Below, in pieces: positions 17,654 to 30,640 of a stretch of 64,000 bases of DNA. Location of the stretch: NCBI GenBank assembly GCA_003712055.1, contig RHLJ01000004.1:1-64000 (forward strand). Direction: 5' to 3'. Position 1 is the first letter of the stretch. The number at the start of each line of letters is the position of its first letter. The DNA is from Balneola sp. (GTDB lineage: Bacteria > Bacteroidota > Rhodothermia > Balneolales > Balneolaceae). The translations under genes and the position numbers were made by a program. The notes below the pieces were generated by a model. It was given only the letters and a program-made list of their open reading frames with translations. It had not been told where the DNA came from and ran no database searches.

Positions 17654-18607
17654 ATGGGATTTTTAGAAAAACTAGGCATCAAGAAAAAGGAAACGCTTGA
17701 ACAAGGCGTGGAAAAAAGCCGTGCAGGGATTTTAAATAAGCTAGGAAAAGCGCTAGCCGGAAAAGATACTGTTGACGATGAAATTCTTGATGAGTTAGAA
17801 GAGATTTTAATCACCTCTGATGTTGGGGTGAAAACTACCATCGAGATCATAAAGCGCATTGAAAAACGAGTAGCTCGTGATAAGTATGTAAACCAGAGTG
17901 AACTTCAGAAAATGCTCCGTGAGGAAATTGTTGCTCTCCTCCAGGAAAACCCAACCGAAAAACCTGCGGAGTTTGATGCTGAATTCCCTTCAAAACCACA
18001 CATTGTTTTGGTGGTGGGAGTAAATGGGGTTGGAAAAACCACTACTATTGGAAAGTTATCTTATATGTATAATTCTGCCGGTAAGAATGTGCTGCTTGGT
18101 GCTGCCGATACCTTTAGAGCGGCGGCGGTAGATCAACTTAAAATCTGGAGCGAGCGGGCAGATGTTCCGATAATCGAACAAGGCCAGGATGCTGATCCTG
18201 CTGCTGTTGCTTTTGATACTGCCTCAGCGGCTAAAGCCCGAGCTGCAGATATTGCCCTAATTGACACTGCCGGAAGACTTCACAACAAAAAAGCTTTGAT
18301 GGATGAGCTCTCTAAAATTAAGAGGGTAATGAGCAAGGTGATTGACGATGCTCCACATGAAGTGATTTTGGTACTGGATGCTTCTACCGGACAAAACGCT
18401 ATGCAACAAGCCAAGGCTTTTACTGAGGCAGTAGATATTACTGGGTTGGCACTAACTAAATTAGATGGAACAGCGAAAGGAGGGATTGTAATCGGTATCT
18501 CTCACGAACTGAATGTTCCCGTAAAGTATATCGGGCTCGGAGAAAAGATCGAAGATCTACAGGTTTTTGATAAAGCAGATTTTGTAAATGCTCTATTTGG
18601 GGAATAA
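17654..18607 (+). CDS. ftsY: signal recognition particle receptor FtsY
   Basis: 317 residues comprising the NG domain only, without a long acidic A domain. The N domain four-helix bundle is residues ~20-100. The SRP-GTPase G domain contains GVNGVGKTTTIGKL (P-loop), DTFRAAA, DTAGRL and TKLDGTAKGG. It docks SRP-ribosome complexes at the membrane and, with Ffh, hydrolyses GTP to hand nascent membrane proteins to SecYEG. It follows a CDP-alcohol transferase by 8 bp. A hairpin terminator lies 6 bp past the stop. Confidence 0.97.
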   Translation: MGFLEKLGIKKKETLEQGVEKSRAGILNKLGKALAGKDTVDDEILDELEEILITSDVGVKTTIEIIKRIEKRVARDKYVNQSELQKMLREEIVALLQENPTEKPAEFDAEFPSKPHIVLVVGVNGVGKTTTIGKLSYMYNSAGKNVLLGAADTFRAAAVDQLKIWSERADVPIIEQGQDADPAAVAFDTASAAKARAADIALIDTAGRLHNKKALMDELSKIKRVMSKVIDDAPHEVILVLDASTGQNAMQQAKAFTEAVDITGLALTKLDGTAKGGIVIGISHELNVPVKYIGLGEKIEDLQVFDKADFVNALFGE

Positions 18608-18612
18608 AAAAA

Positions 18613-18632
18613 CCCCGATTCTAAAATCGGGG
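18613..18632. terminator. bidirectional intrinsic terminator between ftsY and the small peptide gene
   Basis: CCCCGATT-CTAA-AATCGGGG, a perfect 8-bp GC-rich stem. The run of seven A just before it (18606-18612) gives a U-tract for the leftward transcript, and TCATTAT follows for the rightward one. It serves the convergent ends of ftsY (+) and the Pro/Gly-rich peptide gene (-). Confidence 0.85.
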
Positions 18633-18643
18633 TCATTATAAAC

Positions 18644-18793
18644 CTAGCCATCTTCTTTTGGGTCAGTAGGTGCGATTCCTCCACCTCCTTCCCCTGGTCC
18701 GCCTCCAGGCGGCGGTGGTGGTGGCGGATCTCCCCCTCCATTATCATCTGGTCTTGAAAAAACCACGTATCTATTATGCAAGTCCCAACGCAT
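18644..18793 (-). CDS. 49-residue Pro/Gly-rich small protein next to the CHAT protease gene
   Basis: Starts at ATG 18793, preceded by AAGGAG with ideal spacing, which supports this start over longer versions. The first ~15 residues (MRWDLHNRYVVFSRPDD) are conserved-looking and aromatic. The rest is low complexity: NGGGD, seven prolines, then GGGPGEGGGG and an acidic tail. It has no signal peptide. It is divergent from the CHAT protease gene with 83 bp between starts, and its own terminator follows. I recognise no named family. It may be a peptide partner or substrate of the neighbouring system (inference). Confidence 0.65.
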   Translation of the reverse strand: MRWDLHNRYVVFSRPDDNGGGDPPPPPPPGGGPGEGGGGIAPTDPKEDG

Positions 18794-18876
18794 AGTAACT
18801 CCTTGTTTTGAGTTTAAGTTTTTGCCAAAAAAACAGCATATTCTCCTTAAATACAAAACGAGCTTCACTTTTTTAA

Positions 18877-21801
18877 ATGGCCTTTATAAAAAAGCCTATC
18901 CTGCTATTTCTTATCTCTTTGTGTTTCAAAACACTAGCTCTTCCTCAATCCTGGATAAGTGAATACGACTTCTTTATGGGGCAAGGAGAGGAGTTGTGGG
19001 AAGCATTGAATTATGAAGAAGCGGCTGCTGAATATGAAAAGGCTTACCGGATTAGTAAAAGCAGTAAAGACACTCTCCGAGTTATTGACTCTGGATTAAA
19101 GGCTTCCAGGAGCCTTCTCCAAGCCGAGAAACCTGATGAGACCCTAGATTTTCTTTCCAATTTAGAGGCTTACTTCTCCTCAAATACACCACCCTCAAAG
19201 AAAGTCTTATTTCTGGAAATTAAAGGTGGATGTTACCAACGGTTCGGACAAACAGAGGTGATGTTAAGTGTCTATAAAGAAGCTCTTAGTATTGGTAGCC
19301 CTGAAAAAGAACCCATTACTTATGGAAATTTACTTCTCAATTCCGGATATGGAGAAATCAGGCTTGCTAATTATGAATTAGCACTGGAACTTTTTGAAAA
19401 AGGATTAGTCGTTTTTTCCGAAACAGAAAGTATTTCCTCCATAAGTAAGGCAAACCTATCTATTTATCTGGCTTACTTATATATGGGAGATTTGGATAAA
19501 GGTACATCCTATCTATTTGAAAGTTTTACGCAGGCAAAGGCCTCCAGTGAGCCTGAAGCATTAAGAAACATTTATCAATATTTAAGTGATTACTACAATA
19601 GAAAGGGAGAGCTCTCTACTGCTATTTCGTATGCTGAATTTGGACTTCAAATATCAGAAGAAATGGGACAGGGCGAATACGTTGCCAGATACTACGAACA
19701 GCTGGCTAATACTTACCGCTTGGTAGGCGAAATTGATCGTGCATTAAGTTATTACGACAGAGTATTAAGCTTTTTTCAATCGATTGGTAATACCGATAGA
19801 GTTGCAGAGCTATTTATAAGCATTGGGTATTGCTTTCGTGAAAAAGGTGAGTATGAAGAAGCGGAAGAAGTTCTGTTTAAGGCACTTGAATATTATAGAG
19901 ACAAAAAACGGAATTATGATATCGCTTTTGTTTTGGAGTCTATAGGCGGAAACGCATTTTATTCTGGAAATTTCGATAAGGCTTACACCAATTTAAAAGA
20001 GTCCTCGGAACTTGCTAAAAAACACAGTTTCAAAAGGATTGAGCAAAACGCTCTTGCATTCATGCTGCTTCTACCAGAAGGATACCTCTCCCCATTAGAA
20101 AGAAAGGCAATCGCTAAGTATATGTTCTCGTCTTCAGAGACTTTAGACTTGCGTCATCAATTGCGATCATTGAGATATCTTTCTGAAATACACGCTACTT
20201 CAAGCTTAGATAGTGCTTTTTATTATGCAAATCAGGCTTTTGAGAAAATTGAACAACAGCGATTGGGTACAACAGATGGGATTCTCAGAGCAGATATTTT
20301 TGCTGGTCACGCCACCTTTTATAATACCGTTGGTTCCTGGCATTCTTCTATGAATGAAGATTATGAATCAGCCTTTGATTTATTTGAGTCATCTAAATCC
20401 AGGGTCTTATTAGATGAGCTAGCTGAAAAAAATGCTCCTGAATTAGAGCTTAGCCCGGAGAATCAAATTCAGCTAAAACAGCACCAAAAACAGATCGATC
20501 AACTATTTAGACAAAAAGAAAGCGCTCGGTCTCAGGAGGAAATTGAGAGCTTGAACCATGAGATCACAGATGCAAAATTTGAATATGAAGTAGCACTTGA
20601 AAGAATCAGAGATGCTCACCCGGTTTGGAGTTCTTTTTTATATCCGGAACGAGTTGGTTTAAGCGATACTCAAAAACTTCTGGATAGTGATTCCGGGATC
20701 CTTTACTACTCGTTTATAAAAAATGGCTTGGCCGTGATGCTTATAACCAAAGATGAGGTTTATTACCATCAAATTGATGGGGAGTATAGGTACAAGAGTA
20801 AATTGGCCAAAGAAATAAATGCTTTTAGAGATGCAATTATTAATGTAGAAGAGGAAGTTATACTCGATTCATTATCGGGGCCATTATATGGACAATTATT
20901 TGCTCCTTTCGAAAATCAGTTGGAGTCGATTTCAAATTTAGCTGTCGTTCCTGATGGACCTATAGCTCTGCTTCCTCTTGATGCTTTAATGAATGACGGT
21001 TCCTTCCTTGTCAATCGATTTACTATTAAGTCTTTACCCTCTGTAACCAGCTACCTAAAACTGAGTGACCCATATCGTAAAACAGAAAAAGATATTTTTG
21101 CAGTTGCTGGTTCTGGCTTCGAGGAGGGAGATCCCTTCCTTCGCTCAAAAACTCAAAATGCCTTTGCTGCCCTTCCTTTTACTCTTATCGAAGCTGATTC
21201 TGTTTCGTCTCATTTCGAAGAAAGTTATGTCCTAAAAAATGATGCAGTAACTGAAGCGGGCATTAAAAATGTGGATATATCGGAGTACCGTTACCTTCAT
21301 TTTGCCACACACGGAAACATTGACGAAGCCTCTCCCAGACAAAGCGGACTTATACTATCTAAAAAGTCAGAGATGGAGCGGCTTTTTGGAGAGGATGGGT
21401 ATCTAAATGCCGTTGAAATAAGCTCGTTTGATATTTCTGCTGACCTGGTTGTTCTTAGTGCATGTAATACAGCTACAGGAAAAGTTATAACTGGAGAGGG
21501 ATTAATGGGACTACAGCGCTCTTTCCTGGTAGCTGGAGCCTCATCGGTTGTAGCCAGCTTGTGGAGTATTTATGATCGTAGCACTCCTGTATTTATGAAT
21601 AAGTTCTATAAGAACTTGGTAGAGATGGAGAGTGAAGAGATTGGTTTCTTCGATAGGATTTCTCTTTGGTTTAATAATTATGAACCAGAGCTGTTTGATT
21701 ATAAAACTAAGGCTCTTCGTGAGACCAAGCTAGAAATGCTTGATCATCCTTATTACGATCATCCGGTGCATTGGGCTTCTTTTGTGATTACCGGGAAGTG
21801 A
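18877..21801 (+). CDS. secreted TPR-CHAT (caspase-fold) protease
   Basis: 974 residues. A signal peptide covers residues 1-23 (KPILLFLISLCFKTLALPQS). Residues ~25-420 are TPR repeats (DRALSYYDRVLSFFQSIGN, GEYEEAEEVLFKALEYYRD). Residues ~510-590 are a charged coiled-coil linker. Residues ~620-974 form a CHAT peptidase domain with the catalytic dyad His812 in HFATHG and Cys863 in LSACNTATG, and the SVVASLWSI block behind it. CHAT proteases cleave specific protein partners; location here would be the periplasm or cell surface. A divergent Pro/Gly-rich peptide gene precedes it, and a sigma/anti-sigma-like pair lies 2.6 kb downstream beyond two genes on the other strand. Confidence 0.9.
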   Translation: MAFIKKPILLFLISLCFKTLALPQSWISEYDFFMGQGEELWEALNYEEAAAEYEKAYRISKSSKDTLRVIDSGLKASRSLLQAEKPDETLDFLSNLEAYFSSNTPPSKKVLFLEIKGGCYQRFGQTEVMLSVYKEALSIGSPEKEPITYGNLLLNSGYGEIRLANYELALELFEKGLVVFSETESISSISKANLSIYLAYLYMGDLDKGTSYLFESFTQAKASSEPEALRNIYQYLSDYYNRKGELSTAISYAEFGLQISEEMGQGEYVARYYEQLANTYRLVGEIDRALSYYDRVLSFFQSIGNTDRVAELFISIGYCFREKGEYEEAEEVLFKALEYYRDKKRNYDIAFVLESIGGNAFYSGNFDKAYTNLKESSELAKKHSFKRIEQNALAFMLLLPEGYLSPLERKAIAKYMFSSSETLDLRHQLRSLRYLSEIHATSSLDSAFYYANQAFEKIEQQRLGTTDGILRADIFAGHATFYNTVGSWHSSMNEDYESAFDLFESSKSRVLLDELAEKNAPELELSPENQIQLKQHQKQIDQLFRQKESARSQEEIESLNHEITDAKFEYEVALERIRDAHPVWSSFLYPERVGLSDTQKLLDSDSGILYYSFIKNGLAVMLITKDEVYYHQIDGEYRYKSKLAKEINAFRDAIINVEEEVILDSLSGPLYGQLFAPFENQLESISNLAVVPDGPIALLPLDALMNDGSFLVNRFTIKSLPSVTSYLKLSDPYRKTEKDIFAVAGSGFEEGDPFLRSKTQNAFAALPFTLIEADSVSSHFEESYVLKNDAVTEAGIKNVDISEYRYLHFATHGNIDEASPRQSGLILSKKSEMERLFGEDGYLNAVEISSFDISADLVVLSACNTATGKVITGEGLMGLQRSFLVAGASSVVASLWSIYDRSTPVFMNKFYKNLVEMESEEIGFFDRISLWFNNYEPELFDYKTKALRETKLEMLDHPYYDHPVHWASFVITGK

Positions 21802-21810
21802 CACTTTCTC

Positions 21811-21899
21811 AGTCATTCTGAGCGAAAGCGAAGAATCAACATCACATTAAGAGGTGTTCATGAATTTGTTGATCCTTCGGCAGTAGCCTCAGGACGACT
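21811..21899. repeat. 89-bp inverted repeat of the GTCATTCTGAG type
   Basis: Left arm AGTCATTCTGAG...GAAGAATCAAC and right arm GTTGATCCTTCGG...CAGGACGACT are imperfect complements of ~30 bp, with a ~27-bp middle. It starts 10 bp after the CHAT gene's stop and runs to the convergent M28 gene. A relative lies at 47686-47760. Confidence 0.65.
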
Positions 21900-21924
21900 T
21901 AAAATAGAAATACGAAGAGTAAAA

Positions 21925-23553
21925 TTACCTGGGCTGTTGCTGGGTTCTTTCTATGAATGTCTGGTTATCTACCTCTGGTCTGGCTTCGGCATTAGCTACT
22001 TTTGCGGTAGTATAAAACAGCAGCTTTGATCGCTTGGTTAGTGCATCAAAATCGATTTTGTCAATTTCATCGGACGGGCGATGATAGTCTGCATGAGTTC
22101 CATTGAAGAAGAAAATAAATGGAACTCCTAGTCGGCCAAAATTCCAGTGGTCACTTCTCCTGTAAAACTGGTTCGGATCATTTAAATCATTATATCGATC
22201 GCTTAACTCAAGGTTTACGCTTTCAAGATTAGCCTCTACAAGCATGTCATTCAATCCCGAAGAAATGATCTTACCTCCAATGATGTACACATAGTTTCCA
22301 TTATCTCCGAATTCGGGATCCCGACGCCCAATCATATCTACATTCAGGTTCGCCACGGTATTCTCAATATCATAGATGGGGTGATCAGAATAATAACGTG
22401 AACCCAGAAGCCCTTCTTCTTCGGCTGAAACATGCAATATGAGTACGCTTCTCTTTAATTCCGCACCGCTTTTCTTTGCCGAAACCAATGCCTGAGCAAC
22501 ATGAAGCAATCCTACCGTTCCACTTCCATCATCATCAGCTCCGTTGTACAAAGCATCTCCGGTAGAATCTGGCTGACCAATTCCCACATGGTCATAATGA
22601 GAGCTTAATACTACTACTTCGTCCTTCAATTCTGGATCCGTTCCCTCAATAAAAGCGACCACATTTTTAGAGCCTACTATATTTTTCTCCTGATCGTGAT
22701 CGTAACCGAATTCATAGCCGGTTGCACTTGCTGAAAAATTTTCTGGCGCTGATGTTATGTCTTCCGATAAAGCAGCGAGCTCGTCCGTACTATCCAGGCC
22801 AAGAAGAGTGCCCGCAAAACTTGGCTTAATCATATGAATAGCTGATGGTAATTCTGCTTCACTTTCCAGGTATTTCAAAGAGAATCCCCCGGGGTTTCCA
22901 AAACCGCTCTGCATATTGGTTGCCTGAGTAGCGAAGTAGCTGTCTTCAGTGCTCATGATTAAAATTATCCCAAGCGCACCTTTTTCGGCCACTTGCTGCT
23001 GCATTGTTGTAAAATTAGCTCTGTCGTAAAATACCATGAACCACTTTCCAGCACCATCTTCCGGATACTGATCTATGGTTTCATTTTTTATACCATAACC
23101 TGCAAATACAATTTCTCCTTGTAAATCAGGCTCGCCAGCTCTCCATGTTCTGAAATTTCCTAGCGATGTAGCATTGTGCGATGATTCATCAACTAACTCA
23201 CCTTCAGAGTCATAAACCCTGTATTCGTATCCATTTGTGATCGGGCGGTTTAAATCAAAGTGTTGGAAATAAGTGCCATCGTCCCCAACAGCTTCAAGCC
23301 CTATACTTGCATAGCGTTTTGCTAAATAGTTTGCGGCCATATCAAGCCCTATGTCTCCAGTCCTTCGCCCTCTTAATGAGTCGTGGGCTAATACGGAAAG
23401 GTCTGTTCTTAACCCTTCAGCAGTTATGGTTCGGGAGAATTCTAATACTGATGGAGCTGGTGCAGTTATTGTTTTTTTGGATCCACTGCAGGCCAGAGTT
23501 ACCGCTACTAAAAGCAGTAGAATATTTTGTGGACTTAATACTTTTTTATGCAT
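21925..23553 (-). CDS. M28-family zinc aminopeptidase, lipoprotein
   Basis: 542 residues. Lipobox LAC with Cys ~22. A PA-like insert domain lies at ~130-270 (GEIVFAGYGIKN, EKGALGIILI). The M28 core follows: SSHYDHVG (first zinc His), YNGADDDGSG (bridging Asp), AEEEGLLGS (catalytic Glu pair), NVDMIGR (Asp) and HADYHRPSDEID (last His). It should hydrolyse N-terminal residues from peptides at the cell envelope. The start overlaps the scpA stop by 8 bp, so the two share a transcript, though no functional link is apparent. Confidence 0.92.
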   Translation of the reverse strand: MHKKVLSPQNILLLLVAVTLACSGSKKTITAPAPSVLEFSRTITAEGLRTDLSVLAHDSLRGRRTGDIGLDMAANYLAKRYASIGLEAVGDDGTYFQHFDLNRPITNGYEYRVYDSEGELVDESSHNATSLGNFRTWRAGEPDLQGEIVFAGYGIKNETIDQYPEDGAGKWFMVFYDRANFTTMQQQVAEKGALGIILIMSTEDSYFATQATNMQSGFGNPGGFSLKYLESEAELPSAIHMIKPSFAGTLLGLDSTDELAALSEDITSAPENFSASATGYEFGYDHDQEKNIVGSKNVVAFIEGTDPELKDEVVVLSSHYDHVGIGQPDSTGDALYNGADDDGSGTVGLLHVAQALVSAKKSGAELKRSVLILHVSAEEEGLLGSRYYSDHPIYDIENTVANLNVDMIGRRDPEFGDNGNYVYIIGGKIISSGLNDMLVEANLESVNLELSDRYNDLNDPNQFYRRSDHWNFGRLGVPFIFFFNGTHADYHRPSDEIDKIDFDALTKRSKLLFYTTAKVANAEARPEVDNQTFIERTQQQPR

Positions 23554-24292
23554 TGATGATCTCGTCTACCGGCTTAAGGTCTATAAAAAATTCAGTGGGG
23601 TCTTCTTCGATAAACAAATTTATTTGTTGCTCTTTAATCATTTCCAGCACAGCTAAAAAAGTAACTACCAATACCACTCTACTCGTAATTGTTGAGCAAA
23701 GCTGCTTGAAGCTTTGACCTCCACTTTTTTGCAAGGTCGTTAATACAAATTCTGACTGTGCTTCTATCGTGGTCTCTACTCTCTCGACTTTATGAACGAT
23801 ATTTTTTCGTTCTATATCGGTTAATACTTTCTTGAAGGCCGCTATTAAATCAAAAAGGGTAACGTCTTTAAGGGCTTCCCCTGTGGCTTGTTTTTCAACC
23901 GTATCAGCATCTATAAAACCCCTGGTATACCTCTTTCTTGTTTCCTCATCAATTTCAGACATCTTAATAGACATTTCTTTGTATCGCTTGTACTCAAGCA
24001 ACCGCTGAACCAGCTCATAACGAGGATCTGTTTCGTCAAGAATTTCTTCATCAGCATCTTCCCTTGGAAGCATCATTTTAGCTTTTATCGACATCAACAT
24101 GCTGGCCATGAGCATAAACTCACTTGCAACATCAAGATCCAATTCTTCCATTAAGTGAATGTATTCCAGGAACTGATTCGTGATATATGAAATGGGAATA
24201 TCATAGATGTCTAACTCGTCCCGCTTGATAAAGAAAAGCAATAAATCCAGGGGGCCTTCAAAGTTATGTAACTGAACACGATACATGCTCAA
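23546..24292 (-). CDS. scpA: segregation and condensation protein ScpA
   Basis: 248 residues, usual length. The conserved N-terminus LHNFEGPLDLLLFFIKRDELDIYDIPIS is followed by SEFMLMASMLMSIKAKMMLP, and a C-terminal winged helix ends the protein. ScpA is the kleisin that bridges the SMC heads and binds ScpB in chromosome condensation. scpB is not in this window. The gene overlaps the M28 peptidase gene downstream. Confidence 0.93.
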   Translation of the reverse strand: MSMYRVQLHNFEGPLDLLLFFIKRDELDIYDIPISYITNQFLEYIHLMEELDLDVASEFMLMASMLMSIKAKMMLPREDADEEILDETDPRYELVQRLLEYKRYKEMSIKMSEIDEETRKRYTRGFIDADTVEKQATGEALKDVTLFDLIAAFKKVLTDIERKNIVHKVERVETTIEAQSEFVLTTLQKSGGQSFKQLCSTITSRVVLVVTFLAVLEMIKEQQINLFIEEDPTEFFIDLKPVDEIINA

Positions 24293-24382
24293 AGCTACAT
24301 TGATATAAACACAATTTCCTTATTTTCTTTTGCACATTGAATGTTATTTTAGGCAACCCTATAAAAGAGAAAAAATAAGGAC

Positions 24383-24928
24383 ATGGATTACTCCCGTTTT
24401 GTATATGCTGTACAAAATGACGACGCTAAAGAACTGGCTTCGATGGTGTCTGTGATTACCGCTGTTCTTATAAAATTTTTGAAAGTTCGAATGGGGGCAT
24501 CACACCATGATGCAGAAGATGCCGCTCAGAACACGCTTTTGCTGGTTACTGAAAAGATAAAAACTGATAAGCTGAATAACCCCGACTCTATTATTTACTA
24601 TCTGTTTACTACTGCAAAAAACGACTACCTGAAGGCTATTGCTAAGATAAAGGAGCCTACGTTTGACGAAACTCCGGAAACTCACTCTCAGGAAGGAGAT
24701 CAATTAACCCGGTTACTGGATAAGGAAAAAATGGGCGTTTTAAAATCCTGTCTATCAGAATTGAAATCAGATTTTAAAGAGTTCATTTCATATTGGTTTA
24801 GAAACCCTAATGATGATACTTCCGTTGTTGCCGATCATTTTGGTATCTCGGTAAGCAACGCGTGGACTAAGAAACACCGTATTTTAAAACTGCTTAAGGA
24901 TTGCTGTGAAAAAAAATTAAAATTTTAA
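24383..24928 (+). CDS. ECF-type RNA polymerase sigma factor
   Basis: 181 residues. Sigma region 2 is around HDAEDAAQNTLLLVTEKI followed by the SIIYYLFTTAKNDYLKAI helix. Region 4 is an HTH at the C-terminus (SVVADHFGISVSNAWTKKHRILKLLKDC). The sequence is divergent from housekeeping ECF groups. It is followed by a gene for a membrane-anchored TPR protein, the usual position for an anti-sigma or cognate regulator, with a perfect palindrome in the 77-bp gap. It likely directs transcription of a local regulon when released (inference). Confidence 0.85.
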   Translation: MDYSRFVYAVQNDDAKELASMVSVITAVLIKFLKVRMGASHHDAEDAAQNTLLLVTEKIKTDKLNNPDSIIYYLFTTAKNDYLKAIAKIKEPTFDETPETHSQEGDQLTRLLDKEKMGVLKSCLSELKSDFKEFISYWFRNPNDDTSVVADHFGISVSNAWTKKHRILKLLKDCCEKKLKF

Positions 24929-24962
24929 TGTAAGGAGTTGTTTTCTCAGCGGTCTTACAGGT

Positions 24963-24989
24963 CAGAATGTATAGACATTATACATTCTG
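24963..24989. promoter_or_regulatory. perfect 11-bp-arm palindrome between sigma factor and its partner
   Basis: CAGAATGTATA-gacat-TATACATTCTG. No T-tract follows, so it is more probably an operator, or an mRNA hairpin that sets the ratio of the two proteins, than a terminator. It ends 16 bp before the ATG at 25006. Confidence 0.6.
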
Positions 24990-25005
24990 AGAGGCACAAA
25001 ATTTT

Positions 25006-25788
25006 ATGAAAGAGAACGAATCAGACATACTAAAAAAAATCGACGCCTACCTTAAAGGAACTCTATCAGACAATGAAATTGATCAGCTTTGGGTAGAGTT
25101 TGCCAAGAACCCTGAGCTTTTGGATCTATTAGAGCTTGAGGTTGGGGTACAGAAGATTATTGAAGATGAGGTTAAAGGAGTAAAAAAGGCGAAAACCTTC
25201 CAACTTCCTTCATGGACCTGGCATGCTTCAGCTGCAGCGGTTATCCTGCTTGTTCTCTCTATTCAACTTTTTCAGGTTGATTCTAAAACCAGGCTGGATC
25301 AGTTTGTGATTTCAGAAATTTCCGCTGACCAGGCAGAAACAGGTGACGGAGTACGGGCTAAAGATAGGATCATCACTACTGCTGATTCTCTGTTGAATCT
25401 CGGCTTTAGCGCACTGGTTTCAGGAAATATCAGTCAGGCTCTTTCACTTTATGATGAGGTAATCAATAACTACGATATTGAGCCTTATGGTTCGAAGGCT
25501 TTTACTAATAAGGGCATTATACTCTACAATCAGGGTGATTATGAAGCATCGGTCGAATCATTTGATTCTGCTTTAGAACGTATAGAAGAGAGCCGAATGA
25601 TTGAAGAAAAGGCACATTGGTATAAAGGAAATGCCCTTGCAAATCTTAACCGCCTTGAGGAGGCCCGGATGTCGGTCTATAATGCATACTCAATGGATGG
25701 TATTTTCAGAAAGCCTGCCTTCCTCCTTCTTCAAAAGCTTAACTATGATTTAGGCTACTTTGAATCCGAAGAGACGGATGCAAATTAG
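25006..25788 (+). CDS. membrane-anchored TPR protein, probable anti-sigma factor
   Basis: 260 residues. Residues ~1-65 are a charged cytoplasmic helical domain (KKIDAYLKGTLSDNEIDQLWVEFAKNP), as in Bacteroidota anti-sigma proteins. Residues ~74-90 are one membrane helix (ASAAAVILLVLSIQLF). Residues ~125-240 are periplasmic TPRs (SKAFTNKGIILYNQGDYEA, KAHWYKGNALANLNRLEEA). The order sigma gene then single-pass TPR protein fits a module that holds the sigma factor until a periplasmic event. A direct anti-sigma role is inferred; no zinc-binding HxxxCxxC motif is present. Confidence 0.7.
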   Translation: MKENESDILKKIDAYLKGTLSDNEIDQLWVEFAKNPELLDLLELEVGVQKIIEDEVKGVKKAKTFQLPSWTWHASAAAVILLVLSIQLFQVDSKTRLDQFVISEISADQAETGDGVRAKDRIITTADSLLNLGFSALVSGNISQALSLYDEVINNYDIEPYGSKAFTNKGIILYNQGDYEASVESFDSALERIEESRMIEEKAHWYKGNALANLNRLEEARMSVYNAYSMDGIFRKPAFLLLQKLNYDLGYFESEETDAN

Positions 25789-25833
25789 CGAACGTTTAAG
25801 CTGGACCAGCATAAAGCACCGCACAAATTATGT

Positions 25834-28083
25834 TCAATCTTCCTTATGATTTTCCATTGGGATAGGAGAGGCTGAATCCTTTATGTGATTCATAAGCACT
25901 TTATGGGTTGCTATCTTTCTTGTTCCCTTCTGCTTTTCGATACGAGTATACGTTCCATCTGTGTTTAATTCCCATCTTTGCTGATTATCATTCAGGTAAA
26001 TATTGAGCATAAACTGAAGATACTTCTTCAATGGCTCCTTCTCTATAGGTACGATAGCTTCAACCCTTGCATCCAGGTTCCGGTGCATCCAGTCAGCAGA
26101 TCCCATGGTATAAATGTGATTTCCAGCATTGTGGAAATAGTAAATGCGCGAATGTTCCAGGAATCGTCCTATTACTGAGTGAACGGTAATGTTTTCACTT
26201 AAACCTTCTTTTCCTGGTATTAACCTACATACTCCTCGTACTATCAGATCGATCTTTACTCCGGCATTAGAGGCTTCATATAATTTCTGAATAATAATCG
26301 GGTCTTCAAGGCTATTCATTTTGGCGATAATTCGAGAGGGCCTGCCATTTTTAGCCTCATTCGTTTCGAATTCAATAAGCTCAGTCATTTGATTACGCAT
26401 ATGCTTAGGGGCCACAAACAATTTCTCGAAAGTCTGATCTGGTGCATAGCCTGTTAACAGGTTAAAAATATCCGTTACATCTGAGGCTATGGTTTCATCA
26501 CAAGTAAATAAACCCAGGTCCTCATAAAGTGTGGCTGTATCAGGATGGTAGTTCCCGGTTCCGATATGGCAATACGTTCTAAGTCCGTCTTCTTCTTCAC
26601 GAACGACCATGGTAACTTTGGTATGGATTTTTAAGCCTGGTATGCCATAGGAAACATGAACTCCAACATTTTCCAGTTGCTGAGCCCAATTGATATTTCT
26701 CTCCTCATCAAAGCGTGCTTTAATTTCAACCAGTACAGCTACCTGCTTTCCATCTTCAGCAGCTTCCATAATGGAATGCATCAAAGGAGAGTCTTTAGAG
26801 GTTCGGTAAAGTGTTTGTTTTATCGCCAAAACTTTTGGGTCTCTGGCCGCTTCAGAAATAAATCGCTGCGTAGATAAAGCAAAACTATGATAGGGGTGAT
26901 GAACCATGAAATCCCCTTCACGAATTACCGAAAAAATACTTGGGATTTCTTCGTCAACTTCATGTTTGAGTGAAGGATGAAGGACAGGAATCCAGCCCCT
27001 TGATTTCAGCCTTGAAAACCCTTGCAAACCTGCAATCTGGAATGCATCTACCAACCCAATGGTCCCCTCCATCTCATACACATCGTTCCAGTTGATATAG
27101 AGGTTTTTGATCAGGTATTTCTTTATATGGCGAGGCATGTCCTTATCAAGCTCCAGCCGTACAATCTCTGCAAACTTCCTCTCCCTAAGTTCATCTTCAA
27201 TTACTTCCAGCAGGTCATCCGCCTCTTCTTCCTGCCTTTCAACAGACGCATTTCGGGTTACTCTAAACAAATGAGCTGAAAGCACTCTCATGCCCGGAAA
27301 AAAGGTACCTATTTTACTCGCTATCAAATCTTCTATCGGAACCAGTACCACTTTATTTCCCCTTCGATGTACCTGGATAAACCGGGGACGGTTCGCAGGA
27401 ATTTTTATTCGGGCAAAAAACTTCTCTTTTGAAGAGGGATTTTGAAGCTCGATAGCAAAAGAAAGGCTCTGGTTGGAAATAAAAGGGAAAGGATGAGACT
27501 CATCTACAGCAAGTGGAGTAATAATAGGGTACAGCTGCTTTTGAAAGAACCGATCGCTCACTTTTTTTTGATAATCAGTAAGCTCGTTATAATGCTTAAT
27601 GCTTATGCCCGCTTCTTGCAAGGCTGGAATTAGATCATTAAAAAAACAGCTTCGATAATCCTCGATCATCGAAAGCACATCATTTCGAATGGACTTCAGC
27701 TGATCAGAGGCAGACATTCCATCTACAGAAAGAGACTTCACACCAGCATGCAACTGGCGCTTGAGACCACCCACTCTTTTCTGAAAAAACTCATCCAGGT
27801 TAGAACAAACAATTCCGATGAATTTTACCCGCTCAAGTAGTTTATTCCTTTCTCTTTTAGCCTCCGCAAGAACCCGGTCGTTAAATTTGAGCCAGCTAAG
27901 CTCGTAGTTGAAAAAGTATTCATCCCCAAAAATGCGTAAGCTGCTTGAGCTTTGATCTTTGTGCAGTCCTTTTTCCTTTAGGATCTGGTTTTTCTTTTTA
28001 TTCTTAGATTTTACCCCTCTCCTCTTCTTTTGCTCTTCAATAGGATCATAGTCGAGTTCGTCTGGAGAGAGTGATGATTTCAT
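25834..28083 (-). CDS. ppk1: polyphosphate kinase 1
   Basis: 749 residues, slightly long because of a basic N-terminal extension (KKRRGVKSKNKKKNQ) ahead of the PPK1 N domain (YFFNYELSWLKFNDRVLAEA). The head domain and the two C-terminal catalytic domains are intact: PSRIIAKMNSLEDP, the phosphorylated-His loop GLKIHTKVT, and the second His in FLEHSRIYYF. The enzyme reversibly makes polyphosphate from ATP at the inner face of the membrane. It is monocistronic and convergent with the anti-sigma-like gene. Its start is 84 bp from the divergent ruvB start. Confidence 0.96.
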   Translation of the reverse strand: MKSSLSPDELDYDPIEEQKKRRGVKSKNKKKNQILKEKGLHKDQSSSSLRIFGDEYFFNYELSWLKFNDRVLAEAKRERNKLLERVKFIGIVCSNLDEFFQKRVGGLKRQLHAGVKSLSVDGMSASDQLKSIRNDVLSMIEDYRSCFFNDLIPALQEAGISIKHYNELTDYQKKVSDRFFQKQLYPIITPLAVDESHPFPFISNQSLSFAIELQNPSSKEKFFARIKIPANRPRFIQVHRRGNKVVLVPIEDLIASKIGTFFPGMRVLSAHLFRVTRNASVERQEEEADDLLEVIEDELRERKFAEIVRLELDKDMPRHIKKYLIKNLYINWNDVYEMEGTIGLVDAFQIAGLQGFSRLKSRGWIPVLHPSLKHEVDEEIPSIFSVIREGDFMVHHPYHSFALSTQRFISEAARDPKVLAIKQTLYRTSKDSPLMHSIMEAAEDGKQVAVLVEIKARFDEERNINWAQQLENVGVHVSYGIPGLKIHTKVTMVVREEEDGLRTYCHIGTGNYHPDTATLYEDLGLFTCDETIASDVTDIFNLLTGYAPDQTFEKLFVAPKHMRNQMTELIEFETNEAKNGRPSRIIAKMNSLEDPIIIQKLYEASNAGVKIDLIVRGVCRLIPGKEGLSENITVHSVIGRFLEHSRIYYFHNAGNHIYTMGSADWMHRNLDARVEAIVPIEKEPLKKYLQFMLNIYLNDNQQRWELNTDGTYTRIEKQKGTRKIATHKVLMNHIKDSASPIPMENHKED

Positions 28084-28167
28084 GAGTGGCTAAACTTGGA
28101 TGCGCATTTCGTGACAAAACTAAGTATAATTCTTTTAAGTTAAAGTAAACAAGTCAGCAACTATTTC

Positions 28168-29181
28168 GTGCAAAATCCCTTGTTAAATCCCAGTGAAAAA
28201 GAAGAAGCTTTTGAACAATCGGTACGACCTTCTTCTCTCTCTGAGTTTATAGGTCAGCAAAAAGCCATTTCTAATCTTAATGTATTTATTAAGGCAGCTA
28301 AACAGAGAGGCGATGCACTGGATCATGTGATTTTATCCGGGCCTCCCGGACTTGGTAAAACCACGCTCTCTTATATCATTGCACAAGAAATGGGAGTTAA
28401 TATCCGCCCTACAACTGGCCCTGTGCTTGAAAAGCCCGGTGATTTAGCGGGCATGCTTACCAATCTGGAACAGGGGGATGTTCTTTTTATCGATGAAATA
28501 CATCGGCTCAATCCTGTGATTGAAGAATACTTGTACTCAGCAATGGAGGATTTCAAGCTGGATATTGTGATTGACTCTGGTCCAAATGCCCGAAGCATTC
28601 AAATTGACCTGAACCACTTTACTCTTGTTGGGGCAACCACCCGAAAGGGAATGCTTACAGCCCCTCTTAGAGCTCGCTTCGGTATCGATATGCGCCTGGA
28701 TTATTATGATGTCGAGTTACTACAGCGCATCGCCCTTCGCTCTGCACATATTATGGGCTTTGGTATTACAGAAGAGGGGGCTCATGAAGTTGCCAGTCGA
28801 AGCCGTGGAACACCAAGAATTGTGAATAAACTTCTCCGCCGAACAAGAGACTTTGCCCAAGTGGATGGCCTGACTAGTATCGATCAAAAAATTGCAGACA
28901 AAGCCTTGAATGCCCTGGATGTAGATGCCAATGGCCTGGATGAAATGGATATCCGCATGCTCCGATCTATTATAGAAAACTATAAAGGTGGGCCGGTAGG
29001 TCTAAGCACTCTTGGCGTAGCTGTGGGTGAAGACAAAGGAACCATTGAGGAAGTATATGAGCCTTACCTAATCAAAGAAGGGTTTTTACAGCGCACACCT
29101 AAGGGGCGGGTAGCTACACAAAAAGCGTATCAGTATTTGGGTGTTTCTCAGCAAGGAGATTCTTCAGATTTGTTTGGATAG
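28168..29181 (+). CDS. ruvB: Holliday junction branch-migration ATPase RuvB
   Basis: 337 residues, normal length. Starts at GTG 28168. The family start [11 protein letters not shown] is followed by GPPGLGKTT (Walker A), DEIHRL (Walker B), [17 protein letters not shown] (sensor 1 and arginine finger area), SRGTPRI (sensor 2) and a C-terminal winged helix ([16 protein letters not shown]). RuvB hexamers drive branch migration with RuvA. ruvA and ruvC are not adjacent. A strong hairpin terminator follows. Confidence 0.98.
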
Positions 29182-29189
29182 AAAAAAGA

Positions 29190-29217
29190 AAAGCCACATT
29201 AAATTATGTGGCTTTTT
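29190..29217. terminator. bidirectional intrinsic terminator
   Basis: AAGCCACAT-taaatt-ATGTGGCTT, preceded by A-rich sequence (AGAAAAAAGAAA) and followed by TTTTT. It sits between the convergent ends of ruvB (+) and the metalloprotease gene (-). Confidence 0.85.
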
Positions 29218-29224
29218 GAGTGGA

Positions 29225-30640
29225 TTATTTTACTAATTGCATTTTTATTTCATTTATAAAGCTTTCGCCAGAAGAGCCTATAGCTGATAATCGTGCAATA
29301 TACAAGCCGCTTGGAAGGGCGCCTGCGTCAAAGGTAATTTCATAACTACCTTCTCCTAAACTCCCATTTTGCAAGGTGGAAACTAATTGCCCCATTGTAT
29401 TATAGATAGTTAGTTCCACATTCGACTGCTCTGGAAGTGCAAATGAGATTTTCGTACTTGGATTAAACGGATTTGGGTAGTTATTCGATAAGGAATATGA
29501 TTCGGGGATGGTTTCTCCAACCAACTTTGGCTGAGGGCAAGTGAACGGCCCACAACCCGATCCGCCTGATGATATTGCATCAACGCTGTGGTAATCAGTA
29601 AATGAATTATTCACATCATCAATAACAACCAACTTTAAATCCATATCAACGGTAACCGTTTGCCCGTAGGAAGTTCCGTTACCAACATATGTGTAGCTGG
29701 AAGAACCAGAATTTTTTCTATACCAGTAATAATCATACGGGGGTAACCCACCAGATACATTAGATGTCCAAACATCATAAGTATTCGCTTGTACCGACCA
29801 TCTCCCACTTATTGAAGCATTCAATTGTGGAAGAGGGCGGAATGCAGCTACGTCATCCGCTCTTTCTAAAATTAGTCTTGCTACATCGGTATTATCTGTA
29901 GCCAGTTTTGGTTGGTTGGTATTACTATTTGAACCATCAAAAAGAGAGTTTGACCAATAATTTACCCTATCATCATCTGCATTGTTAGTCGCATACATAA
30001 TTGAGAGTTTGCCATTCAAATGAGATAAAGTACCGCTTAATGATTGATCCACTTGTATTACCTGTCCATGGGCATAACTTACACTGCTTGAGTAACCCTG
30101 CCCGATTCCATGACCTGCGCCAAAAATGTGCCCTATCTCATGTGCTAACGAGTGATTATCTAAACATCTGTATCCTTGAAAGAACCCTGCATTTATAAAA
30201 ACATTAGCCTCTTCAGAGTTAAGTGTTCCAATGGATGTTACTCCAGCTGACCCACATGTTGTGGTGCTTTCAAAAAGAACAACTACTATATCGGCATCTC
30301 CTCTATTTAACTTTAAGAAGTTATCTAGTGCAGTGGCGTTGTTGTAAGTAGAGAGAGGAATAGAGGTAAGTGAACCATCCCATGAAAATGTTGCTATTCC
30401 ACTACCCAATTCAGGAGTTTGGATAATTGACTGGTTCAGATCCGCTACTGCTCCGTTCATTAAAGACGTAAGAACGCCTGTTGAATACGGGATCCCAGAT
30501 CTATAAAACACTTTCAAATCTATTGTAGCAGATGATTCCGTCTCTTCTTTCGGCTCAACAGCAAATGAGTACGAATAAAAATCAATTAATATTATTGATA
30601 GAGTTAAAAATAATATTCTAATAGTATTTCTCTTTTTCAT
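29225..30640 (-). CDS. secreted reprolysin-like zinc metalloprotease with type A sorting domain
   Basis: 471 residues. A signal peptide covers ~1-27. The catalytic domain at ~38-270 has the metzincin motif HEIGHIFGAGH (His167, Glu168, His171, His177) followed by a Met-turn candidate LSIMYAT. A spacer beta domain (~275-380) and a Cys-containing linker (GCGPFTCPQP) precede the sorting domain NYPNPFNPSTKISF ... SGLYIARL at ~395-471. It should be an exported protease delivered through the outer membrane. The sorting domain is the same type as in the proteins at 2-4919 but its sequence is clearly diverged. Confidence 0.9.
   Translation of the reverse strand: MKKRNTIRILFLTLSIILIDFYSYSFAVEPKEETESSATIDLKVFYRSGIPYSTGVLTSLMNGAVADLNQSIIQTPELGSGIATFSWDGSLTSIPLSTYNNATALDNFLKLNRGDADIVVVLFESTTTCGSAGVTSIGTLNSEEANVFINAGFFQGYRCLDNHSLAHEIGHIFGAGHGIGQGYSSSVSYAHGQVIQVDQSLSGTLSHLNGKLSIMYATNNADDDRVNYWSNSLFDGSNSNTNQPKLATDNTDVARLILERADDVAAFRPLPQLNASISGRWSVQANTYDVWTSNVSGGLPPYDYYWYRKNSGSSSYTYVGNGTSYGQTVTVDMDLKLVVIDDVNNSFTDYHSVDAISSGGSGCGPFTCPQPKLVGETIPESYSLSNNYPNPFNPSTKISFALPEQSNVELTIYNTMGQLVSTLQNGSLGEGSYEITFDAGALPSGLYIARLSAIGSSGESFINEIKMQLVK

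Follow-up and report, generated by a model that had tools for sequence, protein, structure and literature searches.

Does a secreted protease encoded a short distance from a sigma factor signal to it, or do the two genes merely share a neighborhood? The question is raised by positions 18,644–25,788 of a 64,000-nucleotide stretch of Balneola sp. DNA (hereafter the window; contig RHLJ01000004.1 of assembly GCA_003712055.1, positions 1 to 64,000 of the forward strand). Here, a sequence-only reading had recognized four open reading frames (ORFs), all of which are present as described: a tetratricopeptide repeat (TPR)-CHAT protease (CHAT1), a divergent 49-residue peptide, an extracytoplasmic function (ECF) sigma factor (SIG1) and a membrane TPR protein (TPR1). 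It had proposed that CHAT1, acting on the periplasmic side of TPR1, could release SIG1. From comparative sequence analysis, which established the genes, their conserved association, matched losses, the promoters with their co-variation, and the targets, we favor with moderate confidence a switch that spans the membrane, in which a sigma/anti-sigma pair is linked to a secreted caspase-like protease and drives DNA-recombination genes. That earlier reading had not included a second locus with its lipoproteins, nor the promoter or the regulon of DNA-recombination genes.

Conserved association and matched loss in Balneolaceae

CHAT1 (974 aa, positions 18877..21801, forward strand) consists of a signal peptide, a TPR array and a C-terminal CHAT domain (PF12770, Pfam E=2.6e-56), the architecture of a TPR-CHAT protease. 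The His812/Cys863 dyad reported earlier is intact, with H808, H812 and C863 invariant across 27 homologues. In structure comparison, the CHAT1 fold is close to Csx29, separase and DdvA, the last matching over most of the CHAT1 length (Foldseek E=4e-14); in a second comparison, TPR proteins made up most of the matches, Csx29 scored Z ~22–24 and DdvA was absent among the matches listed. SIG1 (24383..24928, forward strand) is a divergent ECF-type sigma factor, identified by a weak Pfam match to region 2 (Sigma70_r2, E=5e-4) and full-length NCBIfam matches below cut-off (TIGR02989, E=4e-11; TIGR02937, E=9e-9), and its paralogue SIG2 scores above the TIGR02937 cut-off. As is typical of ECF factors, SIG1 comprises sigma regions 2 and 4 only, and a conserved two-block promoter precedes its own regulator gene. 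For TPR1 (25006..25788, forward strand), the AlphaFold2 model (predicted local distance difference test score 86.6) agrees with the single-pass topology read from the sequence: a cytosolic three-helix domain (helices within residues 2–57), one transmembrane (TM) helix (70–88) and periplasmic TPRs (125–249). Such a chain, encoded next to the sigma gene, has the layout of a membrane anti-sigma factor. A structure search with TPR1 yielded generic TPR folds only and nothing bearing on an anti-sigma domain; no TPR1 was found on plasmids, and a scan of named organisms with TPR1 alone identified one relative, Balneolaceae bacterium HXMU1428-16.

Across 92 Balneolaceae genomes, we typically found two each of the CHAT proteins, SIG1-subfamily sigma factors and membrane TPR partners, arranged at two loci. 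In the 28 well-assembled genomes, 52 of the 60 CHAT genes lie within 10 kb of a sigma or TPR partner gene, against a chance expectation of ~1% per CHAT. At locus 1, the order ftsY-CHAT1-M28-scpA-SIG1-TPR1-ppk-ruvB-metK is kept in many genera, so that the M28 peptidase gene and scpA, correctly noted as lying between CHAT1 and the sigma pair, belong to the family synteny as well. CHAT1 is duplicated behind ftsY in genera g3 and g7 (L120, L093, L122). The sequence-only reading had staked the CHAT-sigma link in advance on co-occurrence across relatives, and the link survived this check.

The pattern of gene loss is more specific. All 26 genomes with a full-length TPR1 have CHAT1, and in the seven genomes that lack CHAT1, SIG1 is invariably kept while TPR1 is either reduced to a remnant of 59–101 aa that retains the cytosolic domain (four genomes: G031, G084, G087, G088) or gone (three: G037, G089, G090). 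These losses of CHAT1 fall in at least three places on a tree of RuvB and MetK, which does not include G087 and has a long g19 branch. The pairing of CHAT1 loss with truncation or loss of TPR1 ties the protease to the periplasmic part of TPR1 and, because CHAT1 is an exported protein that co-occurs with retained TPRs, CHAT1 most likely acts on the periplasmic TPRs.

At the second locus and elsewhere in the phylum, the association recurs in compact form. Locus 2 encodes SIG2, TPR2 and CHAT2 in ~5 kb, together with 1–6 tandem lipoprotein genes across genera. In the genome of the window, TPR2, CHAT2 and SIG2 are together on contig C5, with three near-identical tandem genes for 62-aa lipoproteins (L110:9289-9987) between CHAT2 and SIG2. 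The lipoproteins have a lipobox, then CAxVT-type residues, and end in a conserved, PIVxKP-like stretch, [PI]-I-[VI]-x-[KR]-P, and CHAT2 also bears a C-terminal TM anchor. A motif of the form TGTAAC-N15..18-CTCTT precedes both the lipoprotein-CHAT2 operon and TPR2, with 29 matches in 22 module 2 loci, compared to 1 in the other 38 loci and ~1 in shuffled sequences. Judging from this shared motif, it is very probable that CHAT2, the lipoproteins and TPR2 are under SIG2 control. Other families of the order have module 2 as well, including its promoter, and in more distant parts of the phylum sigma-TPR-CHAT clusters are contiguous (L362), convergent (L366) or within a few kilobases (L364, L365, L367). 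Locus 2 is evidence for a CHAT-sigma link independent of locus 1.

Two further features of locus 2 were observed. The lipoprotein copies are far more alike inside one genome than between genomes, which suggests that they were shaped by gene conversion or recent amplification. In several lineages, a gene for a ~193-aa receiver-domain (PF00072) protein lies directly upstream of TPR2 (L354:8872-9450, L357:8801-9391, L097:5504-6085 and relatives), and in L354 and L355 this gene stands behind a SIG2-type promoter.

The putative SIG1 promoter and its predicted regulon

A motif, TGTAAGGA-N15-GTCTTAC, precedes TPR1 and 5–30 other genes per genome. In the window, its instance in the gap between SIG1 and TPR1 (TGTAAGGAGTTGTTTTCTCAGCGGTCTTAC, 24929..24958, forward strand), just upstream of TPR1, is conserved across genera. 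The exact pattern occurs ~270 times in 35 genomes of the family, compared to ~8 times for the reversed pattern, and genomes having lost CHAT1 and TPR1 contain 0 or 1 sites of the forms searched.

We tallied 86 sampled first genes downstream of the motif. These comprise four-helix (23S rRNA intervening-sequence protein, IVP) proteins (13), transposases of the tyrosine type associated with repetitive extragenic palindromes (REP; 10), GIY-YIG proteins (9), integron integrases (9; TIGR02249, best E=2.6e-136), RadC (8), YifB/ComM (5), single-stranded DNA-binding protein (SSB; 5), RecA (3) and RecN (3–4), with a remainder that includes lamin-tail proteins, DUF559, PD-(D/E)XK and HU-like proteins. 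In the genome of the window, the predicted regulon consists of TPR1, ssb, radC, a DNA/RNA non-specific endonuclease, a lamin-tail protein, GIY-YIG genes and transposases, along with a recQ-like helicase behind a small nuclease-like gene. The targets comM, radC, ssb and recA are those expected of a competence regulon; no DNA-uptake genes (comEC, dprA, pilus) appeared among ~120 sampled targets, although these genes were not looked for one by one. A ComF-like label at L384 is not claimed, as it had no Pfam hit.

That these sites belong together is indicated by their divergence. In genus g4, the TPR1 site ends in CTCTTAC and the regulon sites likewise (10–21 sites per genome, 0–1 in the control), whereas in genus g11 the TPR1 and regulon sites are mostly TTCATAC or ATCATAC (10–31 sites, 0–1 in the control). 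The targets in the two genera again include ssb, integron integrase, recQ, recA, a RecF/SMC-type protein and radC. Because the -10 element changes from genus to genus in concert at TPR1 and the regulon sites, one sigma factor is predicted to read all SIG1-type sites; a non-palindromic -10 element that co-varies in this way, as found in g4 and g11, is what a diverging sigma factor predicts. SIG1 and SIG2 sites also have the layout GTAA-N19-TCTT in common.

There is no SIG1-type site ahead of SIG1 itself, whereas TPR1 has one, an arrangement that points to a negative feedback loop. Taken together, topology, position, co-regulation and the retention of the cytosolic domain alongside SIG1 make it likely that TPR1 is the anti-sigma factor of SIG1.

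Scattered single-gene units encoding four-helix/IVP proteins, GIY-YIG proteins or REP-associated transposases (L142, L160, L230, L235, L246 and others) each have a SIG1-type promoter, as if mobile or domesticated genes had spread together with the promoter. Ahead of integron integrase genes, the promoter lies ~55–65 bp upstream in most of L197, L203, L213, L215, L373 and L374; integron recombination in Balneolaceae may be under the control of an ECF sigma factor rather than LexA.

A putative membrane-spanning switch and its alternatives

In the mechanism we propose, SIG1 would transcribe TPR1 and a dispersed set of DNA-processing genes (ssb, recA, recN, recQ, radC, comM/yifB, integron integrase, small nucleases and Y1 transposases). 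The cytosolic three-helix domain of TPR1 would keep SIG1 at the inner membrane, with the TPRs facing the periplasm, where CHAT1 would relieve the inhibition by acting on them, whether directly or through a small substrate. An envelope or extracellular cue would in this way be converted into expression of recombination genes, and SIG1-driven synthesis of TPR1 would close the loop. The second copy, with SIG2, TPR2, CHAT2 and the tandem lipoproteins, would be a self-contained version of the same device. That CHAT1 signals through TPR1 is, on the comparative evidence, quite probable. Two known systems, compared below, set a precedent: Csx29 cleaves the sigma-factor inhibitor Csx30, and the anti-sigma factor DdvA is a CHAT protein in its own right. 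The proposed protease-sigma system thus gained support from conservation, the compact second locus, other families and the matched losses; that CHAT1 cleaves TPR1 is something we infer, and we consider the chance that this cleavage is the trigger freeing SIG1 to be slightly short of even.

Several observations weigh against this scheme. Neither a SIG1 nor a SIG2 promoter was found ahead of CHAT1 or the 49-aa ORF. CHAT1 was lost only a few times, in part along long branches, and a full TPR1 occurs with no CHAT found in G045, an 81%-complete genome that cannot be judged. In several genomes where CHAT1 is parted from SIG1 and TPR1, it still lies beside ftsY, such that locus 1 alone cannot tell function from synteny, and its linkage is in part plain synteny. 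Finally, a periplasmic signal driving DNA recombination lacks an explanation.

The best-surviving alternative, which we regard as possible and clearly the less probable course, is indirect action, whereby CHAT cuts a small partner (a module 2 lipoprotein or the module 1 peptide) and the product, or CHAT itself, binds the TPRs of an anti-sigma factor that stays uncut. In its favor, TPR domains commonly bind short peptides, and the near-identical tandem lipoproteins, with their conserved tail, are predicted to be co-expressed with CHAT2. The module 1 peptide fits poorly. Encoded at 18644..18793 on the reverse strand, divergently from CHAT1 and behind the strong ribosome-binding site noted earlier (AAGGAG ahead of the ATG), the 49-aa Pro/Gly/Asp-rich product has no signal peptide or other export signal, and its sequence is hardly conserved: short, acidic, Asp/Gly/Pro-rich divergent ORFs (34–49 aa) occupy the same place in most relatives with slight identity. 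An enclosing 74-aa ORF has no family match in Pfam, and the 49-aa ORF, compared by eye with the lipoproteins of module 2, showed no homology to them. Synteny is all that speaks for a role of this peptide in the switch.

It is unlikely, in our assessment, that CHAT1 and SIG1/TPR1 are neighbors by inherited order only, with CHAT1 doing unrelated work, such as processing of the peptide next to it, while SIG1/TPR1 runs the regulon alone. M28, scpA, ppk, ruvB and metK are likewise in conserved order, and CHAT1 remains with ftsY where the block is broken. Inherited order would not, however, pair and co-regulate CHAT2 with SIG2 and TPR2 at a paralogous locus, assemble sigma-TPR-CHAT clusters in distant families, or make the TPR part of TPR1 disappear along with CHAT1. 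Least credible, and in our view improbable, is that TGTAAGG-N16-GTCTTAC is an operator of a repressor or activator (an SOS-type regulator) rather than a sigma promoter: the element is partly palindromic in g1–g3 (GTAAG...CTTAC) and stands at recA, recN, ssb and radC, but it lies mostly 30–130 bp upstream of start codons in a single orientation, the regulon is retained in g4 and g11 despite loss of the palindrome, the GTAA-N19-TCTT layout is common to the SIG2 promoter, and identity with the LexA operator was rejected given that the published Balneolaeota LexA box is another sequence, TTACACATATTTTWTACATA (PMC7739468).

If the membrane-spanning switch is real, a sigma-factor route parallel to SOS leads to recA, ssb, radC, comM and integron integrase, and recombination and cassette capture in the phylum might respond to events outside the cell. 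The switch would account for the recurring sigma-TPR-CHAT gene cluster, and bacterial CHAT proteases outside CRISPR would gain a concrete, testable partner and output. More tentatively, it could be an extracellular-signal switch for horizontal gene transfer, in which a secreted protease acting on a TPR anti-sigma factor activates, through an ECF sigma factor, recombination, integron integrase and transposases independently of DNA damage and LexA, the lipoproteins of the sister module being protease bait or signal; we consider this doubtful.

Among other features of the window, a GC hairpin at 18613–18632, between ftsY and the 49-aa ORF, is probably a shared terminator, and positions 29225–30640 encode a reprolysin-like (M12) metallopeptidase that carries a type IX secretion sorting domain at its C-terminus.

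Comparison with known systems

A literature search of limited breadth found no account of the sigma-TPR-CHAT cluster or its regulon. In streptococci, the competence regulons of ComX/SigX are driven by an alternative sigma factor that controls ssb, recA, radC and related DNA-processing genes. SIG1 resembles ComX/SigX in being an alternative sigma factor over such genes, but differs in being of the ECF type with a presumed membrane anti-sigma factor and in the absence of DNA-uptake machine genes among the sampled targets. The LexA (SOS) regulon of Balneolaeota overlaps with that of SIG1 in gene classes (recA), whereas the box and the regulator differ, and most of the 92 genomes encode LexA in addition to SIG1.

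Craspase, the type III-E CRISPR system of Csx29 (TPR-CHAT), Csx30 and CASP-sigma, likewise links a TPR-CHAT protease genetically to an ECF sigma factor and its inhibitor, and cleavage by Csx29 of Csx30, the inhibitor of the sigma factor, was demonstrated (PMC10028731). Craspase, however, is cytosolic and RNA-activated with Cas7-11, whereas here the CHAT protein is exported and the presumed inhibitor is a membrane TPR protein; neither a Cas protein nor Csx30 is among the nine annotated proteins in 17654–30640. In the DdvS/DdvA system of Myxococcus xanthus (PDB 8ROT, 8RW5), an ECF sigma factor is paired with a transmembrane anti-sigma factor, DdvA, that is itself a CHAT-domain protein with a CHAT1-like fold, in which a His and a Cys aligned with the dyad are kept (E=0.038, a weak match of profiles) and whose inactivating signal is unknown (PMC4374960). 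DdvA combines CHAT and anti-sigma functions in one transmembrane chain, whereas CHAT1 and TPR1 are separate genes, and, unlike DdvS/DdvA, the Balneolaceae system comprises a second module, which encodes tandem lipoproteins, and a defined regulon for DNA recombination. It is best classed as a DdvA-like system in which CHAT and anti-sigma factor are split between two proteins and the regulon is one of DNA recombination.

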